This document shows, in pieces, positions 57,424 to 64,000 of a stretch of DNA of 64,000 nt. The notes beneath the pieces were generated by a model, which was given only the letters and a program-made list of their open reading frames with translations, did no database searches and was not told the origin of the DNA. Position numbers and translations under genes: made by a program. The stretch spans positions 372,001 through 436,000 of the forward strand of contig NZ_REFZ01000002.1 in the NCBI RefSeq assembly GCF_003841465.1, in the 5' to 3' direction. The stretch is from Natrarchaeobius oligotrophus (GTDB lineage Archaea; Halobacteriota; Halobacteria; Halobacteriales; Natrialbaceae). How positions within the stretch are numbered: position 1 is the stretch's first letter; every line of letters begins with the position of its first letter.

Positions 57424-58185
57424 CTACACGTACTTGATATCCAGTGCGATCTCGTTCGCCGTACTCTTGACCTGGCCGACGAGCTCGTCGTCGAAACCCT
57501 GATTGCCGAGCCTACTGGTCGGTGCAGAGATGCTGATCGCACCCAGAATCTCGTTGTCGGGTCGAATCGGTGCGGCGATACAGCAAAGCCCTTCCGTCCG
57601 TTCTTCCAGGTCGGTTGCAAACTCCTGCTCGCGGACGGACTCCAGTTCCTCGAACAGCGTCTCCCGGTCGGTGATCGTGTTCTCCGTCTCCTTCGGGAGC
57701 CCCCACTGGTCGACGATCGCCTCGACCCGCTCGGCCGGCAGATACGCGAGGATGGCCTTGCCGATCGCGATGTTGTGGAGTCTGAGGCGATGTCCAACCT
57801 GCGTATCGAGATTGACGGCGTACTCGCCGCGAGCCTGATAGAGATAGACGCTCTGGCCGTTTTCTTCGGTTGCGAGGTTGACCAGCATCCCGGTGTCCGA
57901 GGCGAGCTTGTTCGCTTTCGGACGACCGAACTGGTAGATCGAGTAGTTGCTTCGAACGTAGCCACCGAGGGTCAACACCTTCAGGCTCAACCGGTACTCG
58001 TTGTCCTCTTTCACCACGTATCCGTGCGTTCGGAGCGTGCTCAGGTGATTGTGAATCGCTCCCTTCGTCATCTCGAGTTCGTCCTCGAGTTCGTGAATAC
58101 GTGCGCCGTCCAGTTCCCGAAGTTTCTCGATCAGATGCAACGATTTCTCCGTCGTCCGCACCGGGTGATTTGCTTCCGTCGTCAT
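57424..58185 (-). CDS. IclR family transcriptional regulator (first)
   Basis: 253 aa regulator: winged helix at residues 10-75 (ARIHELEDELEMTKGAIHNHLSTLRTHGYV) and IclR ligand-binding domain (VGHRLRLHNIAIGKAILAYLP, RTEGLCCIAAPI, GAISISAPTSRL). It binds a small effector, probably an aromatic or its product, and controls catabolic promoters. ATG 58185 (MTTEANHPVRTTEKSL) is used. A palindrome of the GTTTTC-N5-GAAAAC type lies 32-48 nt upstream and probably mediates autoregulation. Same strand as the second hydratase, whose end is 119 bases upstream of this start. Confidence 0.93.
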   Translation of the reverse strand: MTTEANHPVRTTEKSLHLIEKLRELDGARIHELEDELEMTKGAIHNHLSTLRTHGYVVKEDNEYRLSLKVLTLGGYVRSNYSIYQFGRPKANKLASDTGMLVNLATEENGQSVYLYQARGEYAVNLDTQVGHRLRLHNIAIGKAILAYLPAERVEAIVDQWGLPKETENTITDRETLFEELESVREQEFATDLEERTEGLCCIAAPIRPDNEILGAISISAPTSRLGNQGFDDELVGQVKSTANEIALDIKYV

Positions 58186-58216
58186 ACACAACCCCATGGT
58201 ATCCAGGCACATAACA

Positions 58217-58233
58217 GTTTTCAATTCGAAAAC
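58217..58233. promoter_or_regulatory. Palindrome GTTTTC-N5-GAAAAC, copy B (iclR promoter)
   Basis: GTTTTCAATTCGAAAAC, perfect six-base arms, 32-48 nt upstream of the IclR start, where a regulator would cover or flank the TATA box. Confidence 0.7.
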
Positions 58234-58303
58234 GTAGAATGAGAGTTCGTACCGTGTGAGGAGGGTACAACGAGCACGTTCGTTTACAAACGCTGAACGC
58301 CGA

Positions 58304-59083
58304 CTATTCGACCCGAGTCGTCAGCGTTCCGATCGAGGCGAACTCAACCGTAAGGACGTCACCGGAGTCGACGTCGACGGCCGGCGTGAGCGATCCGCTG
58401 AGGATGAATTGTCCCGCCTCGAGCGTTTCGTCGAGATCCGCGAGCGTGTTGGCGAGCCACGCAACGGACCGTGCGGGATGTTCGAGCACCGCAGCACCGA
58501 CTCCCGACGCCTCGAGCGTCCCGTTTCGGTAGAGTTTGACACCTTCGAGCGAGAGATCGACGTCGTCGACGTCGCGTCTCGTCTCGCCCGTGAGATACAA
58601 CGCGGAGGAGGCGTTGTCCGCGATCGTATCCTGAATGCGAATGTCCCAGTCACGAACGCGGCTGTCGATGACCTCGAGAACCGGAACGACGAACTCGGTC
58701 GCCGCCAGCACGTCGAGGTACGACACCGGCGGCTCGAGGTCGTTACCGATGAAAAATCCGACTTCCGGCTCGATCCGGGGGGCGATGAGGTCCTCGCTCG
58801 GGATCGTGCGTCCGTCGACGAACATGGTGTCGAGTAACCTGCCGAAGTCGGGCTCCGACACACCGAGTTGGTCCTGAATACCCTCGCTAGTGAGTCCGAT
58901 CTTGTGTCCGACGACGGTGGCGCCGTCCTCGAGCCGTCGGTCGATAAACGACGACTGGATCGCGTAGGCGTCCTCGATCGTGAGATCGTGCGTTTCGGTC
59001 GGGCGGGCGATGGGATTGCCCGTCTGCAACGCGTCGTACAGCGACGCGGCGAGTCGATCGCGCGTCTCGTCATCCACTGACAT
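58304..59083 (-). CDS. 2-keto-4-pentenoate hydratase / 4-oxalocrotonate decarboxylase family (copy 2)
   Basis: 259 aa paralog of the enzyme at 55059: DAYAIQSSFIDRRLEDGATVVGHKIGLTS, LIAPRIEPEVGFFI with the metal-binding acids, and GQFILSGSLTPAVDVDSGD. Either hydratase or decarboxylase of the meta-cleavage pathway. It lies just upstream of the first IclR gene on the same strand, and two GTTTTC-type palindromes lie 67-109 nt before its ATG, so it is the likeliest IclR target. ATG 59083 (MSVDDETRDRLAAS) chosen. Confidence 0.9.
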   Translation of the reverse strand: MSVDDETRDRLAASLYDALQTGNPIARPTETHDLTIEDAYAIQSSFIDRRLEDGATVVGHKIGLTSEGIQDQLGVSEPDFGRLLDTMFVDGRTIPSEDLIAPRIEPEVGFFIGNDLEPPVSYLDVLAATEFVVPVLEVIDSRVRDWDIRIQDTIADNASSALYLTGETRRDVDDVDLSLEGVKLYRNGTLEASGVGAAVLEHPARSVAWLANTLADLDETLEAGQFILSGSLTPAVDVDSGDVLTVEFASIGTLTTRVE

Positions 59084-59149
59084 ACGTACGGGGACCGGTC
59101 GGACCGACAAATAAGTTTGGAATAGAGTGGACGGAAATCAGTAATACGT

Positions 59150-59166
59150 GTTTTCTATGTGAAAAC
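59150..59166. promoter_or_regulatory. Palindrome GTTTTC-N5-GAAAAC, copy C (hydratase promoter)
   Basis: GTTTTCTATGTGAAAAC, perfect arms, 67 nt upstream of the second hydratase ATG. Confidence 0.7.
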
Positions 59167-59175
59167 GAACATTCG

Positions 59176-59192
59176 GTTTTCAATGGCAAAAC
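59176..59192. promoter_or_regulatory. Palindrome GTTTTC-N5-cAAAAC, copy D
   Basis: GTTTTCAATGGCAAAAC, one arm mismatch, centred 26 bases from copy C, so two regulator dimers could sit close together on this promoter. Confidence 0.6.
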
Positions 59193-59257
59193 GATCGGAC
59201 CGAATCAAACGCGACAGAACACACGAGAAAGATCGTTCCCGAACAAAATTACGAAGG

Positions 59258-59288
59258 TACGGCTGTAAACGTCGAGTGAACAGTCGAC
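59258..59288. repeat. 31-bp direct repeat, copy 1
   Basis: Copy 1 of a 31-base repeat that contains tgtaaacgtcgagtgaac and ends agtcgac. Copy 2 starts 53 bases further on with one mismatch. Each copy contains the interrupted palindrome GTCGA-N8-TCGAC. Confidence 0.9.
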
Positions 59289-59310
59289 TGGACCCGGAGA
59301 ATGACGAGAG

Positions 59311-59341
59311 TACGGTTGTAAACGTCGAGTGAACAGTCGAC
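59311..59341. repeat. 31-bp direct repeat, copy 2
   Basis: Copy 2 of the repeat at 59258, 30/31 identical. Location between two regulated divergent genes makes a regulatory role or a mobile-repeat relic equally possible. Confidence 0.9.
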
Positions 59342-59758
59342 CGCACTCAAAGGGTTACAAATGCACCAGTGTAAATGCGAGGGCGGAGCGGGCAGATCCG
59401 GAAGAATAACAGAAGTCCGATGGAACACCGCAGCGAAACACCGAGCGACGAGCAGCTCGGGCGGCGGAATACTACTCAAGATCGAATCTCGAACGCCCGC
59501 GAGGTCACGGCGGTGAGGTAACGGAACGTACAAAATGCAGGGGTAGGATCAGCAACTGGCGCCAGTAGCCGGCGAACGACCCCGTGGTCGGCAGACGCGA
59601 CGATTCGGTTCCAGCCTAAGTTCAGCTCACGGCATCAATCCACTATTTGTGGACGTATTGGTCACTTATCGTAATATCAATTGCTGTGATCTCGAAACAA
59701 TCACGATCGCAGCGTGTATCCAATGGAAGTGGAAAGCTCCCCCCGAAAACCGATATCC

Positions 59759-59776
59759 TTTTCACAATAGGTGAAA
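59759..59776. promoter_or_regulatory. Palindrome TTTCAC-N6-GTGAAA-like site before second iclR
   Basis: tttcac and gtgaaa arms around aatag, ending 11 nt before ATG 59788. Arms differ from the GTTTTC family, suggesting a separate site for the second IclR protein, perhaps autoregulatory. Confidence 0.45.
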
Positions 59777-59787
59777 GTGAGTATGGT

Positions 59788-60561
59788 ATGCACACACAAA
59801 CGGATGATGCGGACGGTCGACGGGTTCAGGCCCTCGAGAAAGGACTGACGATAATCGAGGCTCTGAAAGAACACGAAAGTGCAGGCGTATCGGAACTGGC
59901 GACGGCACTGGATATGCCCACGAGTACGGTCCACGTGTATCTACAAACGCTGAAAGCGCTAGGATACGTAATCGCCGAGGACGGTACGTATCGACTCAGT
60001 TTGCGATTTCTCGAGATCGGGAGCAGCGTTCGCGAACAACAGAAGGTGTTCTCAGCTGCGCGCCAGGAGATGATCGATATCTGTCACAACACCGGTGAAA
60101 CTGTCGGTCTCGGCGTACTCGAGTCAGAAAAACGGGTTCAACTGTGGCAAATCGAAGGGAAAAATGCGATCAACGACAACATCAATATCGGGGAGTATAC
60201 GCACTTGCACTGGACCTCACTCGGAAAGACGTTACTGGCGAGTCAGGACGACGACCGCATCCAAGCGATCGTCGAACGTCACGGTCTTCCGAAGGCAACC
60301 GAGAACACGATCACGAACGCAGAAGAGTTGTTCGCCGAAGTCGAAGCGATCCGACGACGGGGATATACGCTCGAGGACGAGGAGCGGAAAGTTGGAATTC
60401 GAAGTATTTCCGTTCCGATTACGGACTCGAACAACGAGACGGTGGCGGCTCTCGGAATTACAGCCCCGAAAAACAAAATGACGTCGTCGACGTGTAGCAA
60501 GTACATTCACCAGCTCGAAGAGAAGGCCAACGTAATTTCGATAAAATACGCGTATCAGTAG
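59788..60561 (+). CDS. IclR family transcriptional regulator (second)
   Basis: 257 aa. The winged helix is at residues 10-70 (GLTIIEALKEHESAGVSELATALDMPTSTVHVYLQTLKALGYV). The ligand domain has GEYTHLHWTSLGKTLLAS, RHGLPKATENTIT and GIRSISVPITDSNNETVAALGI. ATG 59788 (MHTQTDDADGRRVQALEKGL) is chosen; the upstream in-frame residues look non-coding. Likely controls the convergent creatininase/enolase-superfamily genes or the solute-binding gene at 62920. It and the first IclR share only family-level similarity. Confidence 0.93.
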   Translation: MHTQTDDADGRRVQALEKGLTIIEALKEHESAGVSELATALDMPTSTVHVYLQTLKALGYVIAEDGTYRLSLRFLEIGSSVREQQKVFSAARQEMIDICHNTGETVGLGVLESEKRVQLWQIEGKNAINDNINIGEYTHLHWTSLGKTLLASQDDDRIQAIVERHGLPKATENTITNAEELFAEVEAIRRRGYTLEDEERKVGIRSISVPITDSNNETVAALGITAPKNKMTSSTCSKYIHQLEEKANVISIKYAYQ

Positions 60562-60619
60562 CAAGCATGGTGTTCGTACTCGAGTCGAACAGAGATTCGT
60601 TCGAATCGCGGACTCCGTG

Positions 60620-61420
60620 TTATGCGTTCCGTCGGTGGACGGATCGAAGGAATCGTTCGAGTTCGTCTCCGAGCAATTCGTAAATTTGCTCTCCTTTCTC
60701 GGCGGTGGCCAATCCGGGATCGCCGATCGCCCCGGTCTCGGAGTACTCGTCGAAATCGCGATAGACCGCGAGCGGTCCGCCCACGAGGAGGTCCTCGTCT
60801 CCGAGATCGTAGGGCTCATCGAGGTACGTTCCGTTGAGTTCGTCACGCCGAACGAGCTGTTCGTAAAGATAGAGCATGAGTGAAGTTTCGAACTCCCCAC
60901 CGTGACCCATTCCGCCGAGTTCGCTGTCCCGGACGTCGTCGATGAACGAGCGGGCAAGCTGGAAGTACGTGACGCCGAGAACTTCGACGTCGTCGTGGTC
61001 GGTTCCGATGGTGCTGACCGCACCGTCGATCGCCGACTGGTTTCCTCCGTGGCCGTTTACCAGAACCACCGCGTCGAATCCGTTCTCGAGTGCGGTTGCG
61101 ACGACGTCCTCGAGAACCGCAAGCAGGTGATCGAACTCGAGAGAGACAGTGCCGCCAAACGTCAGGTGGTGCGGAGAGTATCCGCTCCAGAGAGGAGGTA
61201 ACAGAAGTACCGGAATTTCGTCGACTACTCGCTCTACGCCGAGCGCCGAGATCTCGTGAGCGAGGATCGTATCGGTGGCAACCGGGAGGTGGTTACCGTG
61301 CTGTTCGATGCTCCCGACGGGAAGCACGAGAACGGATCCGTCTTCCCGGGCGGTCGAAACGATTTCACCGGACGTACGCGTCGCCCACATGGCTCTGTCA
61401 TCTGCTTTCGCGTCGAACAT
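60620..61420 (-). CDS. Creatininase family hydrolase
   Basis: 266 aa metal-dependent amidohydrolase of the creatininase fold. Metal ligands E39, H41 and D50 are in GSIEQHGNHLPVATD; NGHGGN and the Glu in GHGGEFETSL complete the pattern. Members hydrolyse cyclic amides such as creatinine, or formamide intermediates (ArfB-type). It is 76 bases downstream of the enolase-superfamily gene, probably in one transcript. Start ATG 61420 (MFDAKADDRAMWATRTSG); MWATRTSG at 61390 is an alternative. Confidence 0.9.
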   Translation of the reverse strand: MFDAKADDRAMWATRTSGEIVSTAREDGSVLVLPVGSIEQHGNHLPVATDTILAHEISALGVERVVDEIPVLLLPPLWSGYSPHHLTFGGTVSLEFDHLLAVLEDVVATALENGFDAVVLVNGHGGNQSAIDGAVSTIGTDHDDVEVLGVTYFQLARSFIDDVRDSELGGMGHGGEFETSLMLYLYEQLVRRDELNGTYLDEPYDLGDEDLLVGGPLAVYRDFDEYSETGAIGDPGLATAEKGEQIYELLGDELERFLRSVHRRNA

Positions 61421-61496
61421 ACAACCATCCGAAGAGTGGTATCCTCAAAAGTGTTTCTAGCCTCGAGCGAACACGCACTTCGGAACGGCGAGACGT

Positions 61497-62651
61497 TCAA
61501 CGGATTCGGTACTCCGCAAGCTTCGCTTCGTCGACGGTAACGCCGAGTCCGGGTGCATCCGGCACTGGAATCGAACCGTCGACGACCTCGAGCGGTTCCT
61601 CGATCACGTCGTCTTCCCACGCGTAGTAGACCGAGTCGGGCGGTAGCGAAAATCCGGGAACGCCGAGGACGGTGTGCATAATCGCCGCGGTGCGGACACC
61701 GAGGTCGAACGCGCAGTGGTGGGCAACGGGAACGCCGGCGTCCTCTGCGATCGCAGCAAGTTGCCGAACGCCGGAGATACCGCCAGCGGGGGTCATATCC
61801 AGGACGGCGACGTCGAGCGCAGCGTTCTCGATGAGCGACTGGAGGTTGTGAGCGATGTAGGTATCCTCGTTCGGCCCGATCGGCTGGCACGTCCGTTCGC
61901 GCAGCCGGGCGAGTGATCCGTGAGAGTCGACGCGAATCGGTTGCTCGAGATACTGAAGGTAGACGCCGGCGTCGGAAAGCGCCGCTCCAACGCGCACCGC
62001 CTCGTCGAGACGCCATCCCTGATTCGGATCCAGTCGGAAGTCGAGCCGTCCGTCGACCTCGTCGTGCATCGCGAGAATTCGATCGACGTCCTCGCGCCAG
62101 TCGCGGCCGGCTTTCGTCTTCAACACGTCGTGGCCTCGTTCCAGGGCGCGCCGGGCGTGAACCCTCGATTCCTCGGGTGAAAGGATACCCACGCAGTACG
62201 CGACGTCGACAGCCCGGTCGTACTCGTAATCCTGTTCGATCTGTCGCGTCGTGACTCCCGGCGCAGTCCATCCGCCAAGCAGTTCGTATATCGGTTTTCC
62301 GAGCGCTTTGCCGACGATATCCCAGCAGGCGATCTCTACGGCGGAAAAGAACATATCGACGTTCGTATACTCGATAAACAGTAATCTGCGGAGACTCTCG
62401 ACTTCGAACGGTGAGTGACCTTCGACGATCGGAGCGATGCCGTCCTCGAGGATAGCAATGGTCGTTTCTGGAGAGAGAAAGACGCGCATCTCTCCCCAGC
62501 CCGAAATCCCCTCGTCGGTATCGACCCGCACGAGAATTCGATCCATGTCCTCGACGGCACCGTGGTTGGTTACGTACGGCGAGATGCCGCCGTCCTCGAT
62601 GTCGATGACGTTGACGTTAACCGCATACGCTTCTACACCAGTGATTTCCAT
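61497..62651 (-). CDS. Mandelate racemase/muconate lactonizing enzyme family protein
   Basis: 384 aa enolase-superfamily enzyme with capping domain (1-130) and barrel. KxK catalytic pair K178/K180 (LKTKAG), metal ligands D208 (DPN), E236 (LEQP) and E262 (NED). A D285 and H311/H312 pair stands in the place of the His-Asp dyad of the mandelate racemase subgroup rather than the Lys of the MLE subgroup. The reaction may be racemisation or acid-sugar/aromatic-acid dehydration. ATG 62651 (MEITGVEAYAVNV). Adjacent to a creatininase gene and divergent from a solute-binding protein gene. Confidence 0.9.
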   Translation of the reverse strand: MEITGVEAYAVNVNVIDIEDGGISPYVTNHGAVEDMDRILVRVDTDEGISGWGEMRVFLSPETTIAILEDGIAPIVEGHSPFEVESLRRLLFIEYTNVDMFFSAVEIACWDIVGKALGKPIYELLGGWTAPGVTTRQIEQDYEYDRAVDVAYCVGILSPEESRVHARRALERGHDVLKTKAGRDWREDVDRILAMHDEVDGRLDFRLDPNQGWRLDEAVRVGAALSDAGVYLQYLEQPIRVDSHGSLARLRERTCQPIGPNEDTYIAHNLQSLIENAALDVAVLDMTPAGGISGVRQLAAIAEDAGVPVAHHCAFDLGVRTAAIMHTVLGVPGFSLPPDSVYYAWEDDVIEEPLEVVDGSIPVPDAPGLGVTVDEAKLAEYRIR

Positions 62652-62883
62652 GCAACCCCCTCGCAAGAGTATAGTAATAAAGATACTGGTACCAGAAATA
62701 CGAAACAGGTTCGAAATCGTCCGATACGAAACTGGAAAGAGCGTACCAGTCGGTGGCCGAATGGTTCGACTGCATTCGCTTCGGGCGAGTGATGGACCGC
62801 ATCGACAATTGTCTCTATCCGACGAACCGACGTCGGACGGTCGCTTCCAGTCCCACGCGAGCCAGCGTGTTCCGATACCGATA

Positions 62884-62919: not shown

Positions 62920-64000
62920 ATGTCAAGCAATTACAATGGTGTGAACAGACGCGAATTTATCGTCGGGACGGCCGCGTCGGGTGCGGTTGTAGGGCTTGCA
63001 GGCTGTACTGGTGGAGGAAACGGAGAAGCTCCCGGAACCATCGCCGACGACGAAGACGAGTACGAACCGCTTCCGGAGATGGAGTTCGCGTCAGTGGCAC
63101 AGGACGAGGACGCCCTTCGATACGAGGTCGGGAATCTGGCTCAACGCCAGATAGAGGCGCTCGGAATCCGAACGAATCGTGAAGTCGTCGACGTCGGGAC
63201 GTATTCGGACAAACTGAACGACAGGGAGTTCGATTTCATGATCGCCGCCTGGACCGGCGGAACGGAACGGCTGTTCCCGTACTACAACCTATTTTACAGC
63301 TTTCACTCACAGTTCGCCAACCTTCAGGGCGGCAACTACACGATGTTCGAAAGCGACGAGTACGACGAGATGGTCGAGAACTTCCGGGACGAGCCGAACG
63401 AACAACGACGTATCGAGTACGCCCAGAACTGTCAAGAAATTCTGGCGGAGAACGTCCCCATCATCTTCACCGTCCACCCCGACGCGTTGGTCGCCGCGAA
63501 CACCGACCAATTCACGAACTGGCAGGAGATGGTCGGGCTGTACGCATACAACAATATTCCGTCGCTTACGGAAATCGAAAGCGTCGACGGCGAAGACCAG
63601 GTCGTGTTCGGGACGACCGAGGCGCTCGAAACGTATCCGAACTTCTTCAACGTTACCGGGCCGGATGCACTTCGGCTGCACGCCTTCACGTACGATCCGC
63701 TCGTTCGGCTGAACCTCGAAGGAGGCCCTACACCGGCCGCAGCTGAGGACTGGGAGTGGGTCGACGAGACCACGCTCGACGTCACGCTCCGGGCGGACAT
63801 GACGTTCCACGACGGGGAACCGGTGACCGCCGAAGACGTGCAGTTCACGTTCGACGCGATACAGGAACAGGGAATTCCGTACCTGGGAAGCGACATCGAC
63901 CCGTACGGAAGCTCCGAGATCCTCGACGATCGGACGGTTCGGTTCAGCCTCGACAACCCATTCTCCGGCTTCGTCCAGATCAGTCTCTACCGAATTCCCA
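62920..64000 (+). CDS. Peptide/nickel-type ABC solute-binding lipoprotein, rearranged domain order, partial
   Basis: Frame open to the window end (360 codons seen). Signal NRREFIVGTAASGAVVG with lipobox LAGC (C29), then an acidic linker. Residues about 50-220 resemble the C-terminal part of SBP_bac_5 proteins: DFDFMIAAWTGG at 104-115, a GGNYTMFESDEYDEMVENF stretch, and QEILAENVPIIFTVHP. From about 225 (VVFGTTEALETYP) the normal N-terminal part begins: FTYDPLVRLN, FHDGEPVTAEDVQFTFDA. The order is thus C-part then N-part, which looks like a circular permutation or fusion. The ligand might be an oligopeptide or other amide. The ATG 62920 is preceded by a TATA box. Confidence 0.88.
   Translation, partial: MSSNYNGVNRREFIVGTAASGAVVGLAGCTGGGNGEAPGTIADDEDEYEPLPEMEFASVAQDEDALRYEVGNLAQRQIEALGIRTNREVVDVGTYSDKLNDREFDFMIAAWTGGTERLFPYYNLFYSFHSQFANLQGGNYTMFESDEYDEMVENFRDEPNEQRRIEYAQNCQEILAENVPIIFTVHPDALVAANTDQFTNWQEMVGLYAYNNIPSLTEIESVDGEDQVVFGTTEALETYPNFFNVTGPDALRLHAFTYDPLVRLNLEGGPTPAAAEDWEWVDETTLDVTLRADMTFHDGEPVTAEDVQFTFDAIQEQGIPYLGSDIDPYGSSEILDDRTVRFSLDNPFSGFVQISLYRIP

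Follow-up and report, generated by a model that had tools for sequence, protein, structure and literature searches.

Binding proteins of family 5 (SBP_bac_5, cluster C), among them DppA, OppA, AppA, and NikA, have two lobes that close on a solute and pass it to the permeases (PMC12136057). In Escherichia coli DppA, which works with DppBCDF, the N-lobe and C-lobe close on a dipeptide and contact the scoop motif of DppB (PMC12136057). The nearest precedent for a rearranged binding protein, TpMglB-2 (Tp0684) of Treponema pallidum, is of a different fold class; it is a natural circular permutant with measured ligand binding, and its authors proposed the class 'Type Ic / Cluster Bc' (PMC4990184). 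The literature that we searched, which excluded subscription journals and preprints, contained no description of family-5 binding proteins in permuted order. We describe here a haloarchaeal gene that we read, with a probability of roughly 0.93, as encoding a family-5 (cluster C) substrate-binding lipoprotein that is a natural circular permutant. The order and boundaries of its segments, its family, its operon, the separate origins of the permuted order, and purifying selection in Archaeoglobus are shown below, and we infer the fold, ligand binding, transport, and a route by duplication.

Segment order in the window protein

The window, the whole stretch of 64,000 nucleotides that was analyzed (G000:C2:372001-436000), comes from a haloarchaeal draft genome of 69 contigs. 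An open reading frame starts at 62920 on the forward strand and runs off the window end at 64000. Read beyond the window, it encodes a permuted lipoprotein of 571 amino acids (L005:921-2639), of which 360 residues lie inside the window and the remainder at G000:C2:436001-436638 (L005 to base 2639). The parts within the window are as follows.

62920..64000, + strand: permuted substrate-binding lipoprotein gene, 5' portion (sequence, ORF)
62920..63006, + strand: twin-arginine signal peptide with lipobox LAGC, lipidated Cys at residue 29 (sequence)
63007..63072, + strand: acidic linker from the lipid anchor to the displaced C-terminal segment (sequence)
63073..63573, + strand: displaced C-terminal segment, residues 52-218 (PF00496, PDB alignments, segment HMM)
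63574..63582, + strand: new joint between the former C-terminus and the former N-terminus
63583..64000, + strand: former N-terminal segment, residues 222 on (SBP_bac_5 positions 2-287)

The frame opens with the twin-arginine lipobox signal that had been predicted, with NRREFIV as the Tat motif and LAGC as the lipobox; its match to the Pfam family TAT_signal is weak (E=0.0098) and below the family cut-off. The only other Pfam family to match is PF00496, a profile of 368 positions. In a profile search of the genome, the gene matches positions 287-362 first (window 63064-63300; 27.4 bits, under the cut-off alone) and then positions 2-287 (from window 63727; 198.9 bits), and the whole protein scores 223.2 bits against a curated cut-off of 32.4. 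By homology, the protein is a member of SBP_bac_5 (PF00496) in permuted order, with the whole domain present and its canonical order along the chain absent. Residues 52-218 hold positions 287-362 together with the remaining C-terminal end of the family. The former N-terminal segment, which comprises the standard N-terminal and middle part, extends past the window to residue 556, and a 15-residue tail then closes the protein shortly after an 'EDAGF-x-W' helix. Third-position G+C is the same in both segments (0.771 and 0.774), so neither looks recently foreign.

These boundaries bear out most of what the original prediction had drawn from the letters. It held that a C-terminal-like stretch comes first, and the three motifs that it quoted lie near residues 112-115, 145-149, and 172-183, in a segment that the profile places inside the SBP_bac_5 C-terminal region. 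It let the standard N-terminal part begin near residue 225, close to the actual start near residue 222 (DQVVFGTTEALETYPNFF), but the motif that it gave for this start, FHDGEPVTAEDV, is at residue 296, some 70 residues farther along. Solved family-5 proteins show the same exchange, since 5u4o, 1xoc, and 4pft in the PDB align to the window protein in two swapped blocks; for 5u4o, window residues 240-548 correspond to chain residues 59-359, and residues 63-181 to the C-terminal part, 371-486. When the PDB was searched with a six-member profile of the permuted family, the best stretch started at about position 223 in all 60 best of 100 matches and none of these 60 was a collinear chain, and we therefore saw no solved structure of the permuted arrangement. 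An AlphaFold2 model of the relative L007, computed from a 6-row alignment, was of low quality (mean pLDDT 45, pTM 0.44). The fold therefore rests on homology, by which the window protein most likely takes the usual two-lobed cluster C form.

The original prediction had left the choice between a circular permutant and a fusion, in which the middle of an upstream binding-protein gene was deleted and its remaining C-terminal end became attached to the complete gene that follows. A fusion also predicts an N-terminal segment resembling the C-terminal end of the same family, yet the chain, read to its stop codon, has no second C-terminal segment after residue 556, and the relatives all terminate at a similar point. 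Trees of the two halves, built separately, agree in outline (the C-segment tree being poorly resolved), which argues against different parents for the halves. The protein, which ends at residue 571, is thus a permutant; the end of the reading frame and the collinear relatives led us to reject fusion, which we hold to be extremely improbable.

Relatives and separate origins of the permuted order

Five relatives in a genome collection, from Nitriliruptoria, Halorubrum, and Haloarcula MAGs and from two Rhodobacterales-type bacteria, follow the window protein collinearly along nearly the full length at 25-34% identity and have a similar end point. Genome surveys were run with an alignment of the window protein and these five. 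At a strict cut-off (E<=1e-60), matches were found in 131 of 292 Halobacteria genomes, spanning 52 of 77 genera, and all but one of the Halobacteria matches listed are in permuted order. Permuted matches also occur in 10 of 240 Alphaproteobacteria genomes, in 2 of 246 Actinomycetota genomes, and in a few genomes taken for Archaeoglobaceae. A sample of 349 Pseudomonadota held no permuted match except the center genome itself, and outside Alphaproteobacteria the class seems rare in this phylum; the viral contigs scanned held no relative. Plasmid records with permuted proteins come from Nitratireductor, Microvirga, Ketogulonicigenium, Neorhizobium, Roseomonas, Maritalea, and many haloarchaea. Where these plasmid-borne proteins are annotated at all, the entry reads 'ABC transporter substrate-binding protein'; annotation tools report the larger piece only, and the class thereby passes as ordinary.

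A segment-order HMM test was two-valued, with 71 permuted against 103 standard ORFs, counts that mirror how the loci were fetched and are not frequencies. In permuted ORFs the C segment comes first and 2-59 residues follow the N segment, whereas in standard ORFs the C segment comes last, as a rule with 150-240 residues after the N segment. The genome of the window itself has 13 family-5 binding proteins, 7 permuted and 6 standard. A longer permuted subgroup of about 640-690 amino acids, whose N-terminal region is extended and whose C-terminal tail has about 30 residues, is widespread in Halobacteria (L140, L141, L142, and like loci).

Recurrence on this scale bears on whether the order could be an assembly or sequencing artefact, as the draft state of the genome, in 69 contigs, might suggest. 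The 131 Halobacteria genomes share the same order, as do plasmid-borne proteins from many genera and an Archaeoglobaceae genome that consists of one contig. Chance is excluded because independent genomes show the same full-length order, and assembly error was rejected on the same ground; we assign it a practically negligible probability.

To place the permuted proteins, we rotated their sequences into standard order and built a maximum-likelihood tree. The haloarchaeal, alphaproteobacterial, and actinobacterial proteins form one clade (support 97/94), the main clade, and a haloarchaeal group, g3 (L143, L076, L171, L172), is placed elsewhere, among standard proteins. The loci of this second haloarchaeal group are L143, L076, L144, L171, L172, and L174. 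In g3 the cut lies one helix earlier in lobe II, which moves the 'LLEEGF' helix to the N-terminus, whereas in the main clade the corresponding helix closes the C-terminus and the cut falls after it. The Archaeoglobaceae proteins are cut at nearly the same place as the main clade. In AU tests, a constraint joining the main clade and g3 was 32.9 log units worse (p-AU 0.021), a moderate rejection in a tree with long branches, and a constraint joining the main clade and Archaeoglobaceae was rejected outright (p 7e-6). Judged by tree and cut point, g3 apparently represents a separate permutation event. A further permuted protein, L136 (G1262:C2:103000-106500), branches separately from the A. fulgidus type; it has a signal-like N-terminus and a C-terminal PGF...LLRRRR tail with a transmembrane stretch, like an archaeal C-terminal anchor, and is apparently another separate permutation.

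At least three independent permutations are thus counted, in the main clade, g3, and Archaeoglobus, and all three cuts fall within one stretch of lobe II; in this count g3 rests on one alignment and model, and Archaeoglobus on very strong evidence. With L136 included, we think it likely that natural permutation of cluster C proteins has occurred at least three times, and probably four, in each case through an opening of lobe II next to one particular helix. The permuted proteins would form a sub-class, 'cluster Cc', that is the majority form in some haloarchaea and in which lobe II carries the membrane anchor. One alternative is that the permuted order arose only once in family 5 and that some lineages later reverted to standard order, which would agree with the nearly identical cuts of the main clade and Archaeoglobaceae. 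Against it stand the two AU tests, the g3 cut before the helix where other groups are cut after it, and the standard Archaeoglobus proteins, which show the ordinary order of the whole family; we regard a single origin as very unlikely. Natural circular permutations are usually old and are known from pairs of distant proteins. Here, a single fold family has undergone permutation several times at one site. The original prediction did not anticipate so large a family or its multiple independent origins.

The recent permutation in Archaeoglobus

Three Archaeoglobaceae genomes of one genus carry a permuted binding protein beside dppBCDF. One Archaeoglobaceae genome with the permuted protein is a single contig of 2,178,400 bp, presumably that of A. 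fulgidus DSM 4304; the other two represent sister species. The literature that we searched on the A. fulgidus dpp gene gave nothing about segment order. The three genes are as follows.

L175:7824-9386, - strand: permuted Archaeoglobus dpp-operon binding protein
L209:7139-8710, + strand: permuted Archaeoglobus dpp-operon binding protein
L210:8592-10157, + strand: permuted Archaeoglobus dpp-operon binding protein

Standard-order proteins of the same genus align to the permuted ones as two exchanged blocks with 83-87% identity; the signal peptides of the two forms match without displacement. In related genera (G1246 and G1262), the binding protein has standard order and lies inside a dppABCDF operon; the permuted gene is turned round and divergent to dppB. 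Its mature chain is complete, with the cut between AGYSE and (DN)KLKIELWW and the new joint at YLVYSEEQKDTITIGV. A short 'EE-x-K' linker occurs at two sites, one following the signal peptide and the other at the new joint. Such a doubled linker is the expected remnant of a tandem duplication followed by deletions, although for so short and acidic a stretch the likeness is suggestive only. The DNA between permuted dppA and dppB holds no recognizable remnant of lost gene parts. Several Archaeoglobus genomes (L206, L207, L211, L213) have a standard-order binding protein without dppBCDF, which there precedes a gene for a multi-spanning membrane protein.

Among the three permuted genes, dN is 0.03-0.06 and dS 0.4-1.2 (dN/dS about 0.05), which indicates strong purifying selection, and by this measure the permuted Archaeoglobus proteins are very likely functional. 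Such selection also weighs against the idea that the window gene encodes a broken or degenerating binding protein without transport function. The poor AlphaFold model of relative L007 would be in keeping with decay, as would the Asp that binds the peptide amine in DppA and OppA, which seems unconserved in the window protein. The reading frames, however, are intact across many taxa, the genes stand in operons with permeases and ATPases, motifs are conserved, and the recent Archaeoglobus case is under strong purifying selection. We consider degeneration quite unlikely. Because the permuted and unpermuted Archaeoglobus forms are about 85% identical, this pair would allow the effect of permutation on folding, ligand binding, and docking to the permeases to be measured almost alone.

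The importer operon and comparison with known systems

The TAG stop codon of the window gene lies 1 bp before the ATG of the first permease gene, and the genes 3' of it encode a permease (BPD_transp_1), an OppC-type permease (OppC_N), and two oligo_HPY ATPases, the gene set of an Opp/Dpp-type ABC importer. Given this Opp-type permease pair and the two ATPases, the window protein is most likely the solute receptor of such an importer. Upstream, at window 57424-62657, are genes for two IclR regulators, an FAA-hydrolase-type protein, a creatininase-family amidohydrolase, and a mandelate-racemase/enolase-superfamily enzyme. Judged by their predicted products, these genes may form a catabolic cluster acting on a small organic acid or amide, which may be a clue to the solute of the importer.

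We propose that lobe II was cut behind the 'AxxLLEDAGF' helix, at about position 287 of PF00496, and that a short linker came to connect the original C-terminus with the original N-terminus while the signal peptide remained in front, most likely by gene duplication and deletion. The permuted protein would most likely fold into two lobes, close like a Venus flytrap on its solute, and deliver it to the permeases encoded directly downstream. Both lobes are complete, and permutation should for this reason leave closing and hand-over intact. The lipid anchor would lead into lobe II instead of lobe I, which suggests that either lobe of a family-5 binding protein may carry it.

Set against the described systems, the window protein is homologous to the cluster C proteins over the whole mature chain and shares with them export and an Opp/Dpp-type operon, but its segments are swapped and its anchor is on lobe II. 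TpMglB-2 is likewise a binding lipoprotein of ABC-importer type that is a natural circular permutant, has a family of its own, and still binds its ligand (PMC4990184), as the window protein presumably would. TpMglB-2 has a sugar-binding fold of cluster B with its cut in the N lobe, in contrast to a cluster C fold cut in lobe II. The window protein shares circular permutation with the proposed cluster Bc, but has no Pfam match to a type I/cluster B sugar-binding family. The permuted part of TpMglB-2 shows poor similarity, whereas the permuted cluster C proteins have several origins and, in Archaeoglobus, near-identical unpermuted counterparts. E. coli DppA, with DppBCDF, represents the same operon type and the same binding-protein family (PMC12136057); it has standard order and is no lipoprotein, whereas the window protein is a permuted lipoprotein, and the dipeptide specificity is that described for DppA.
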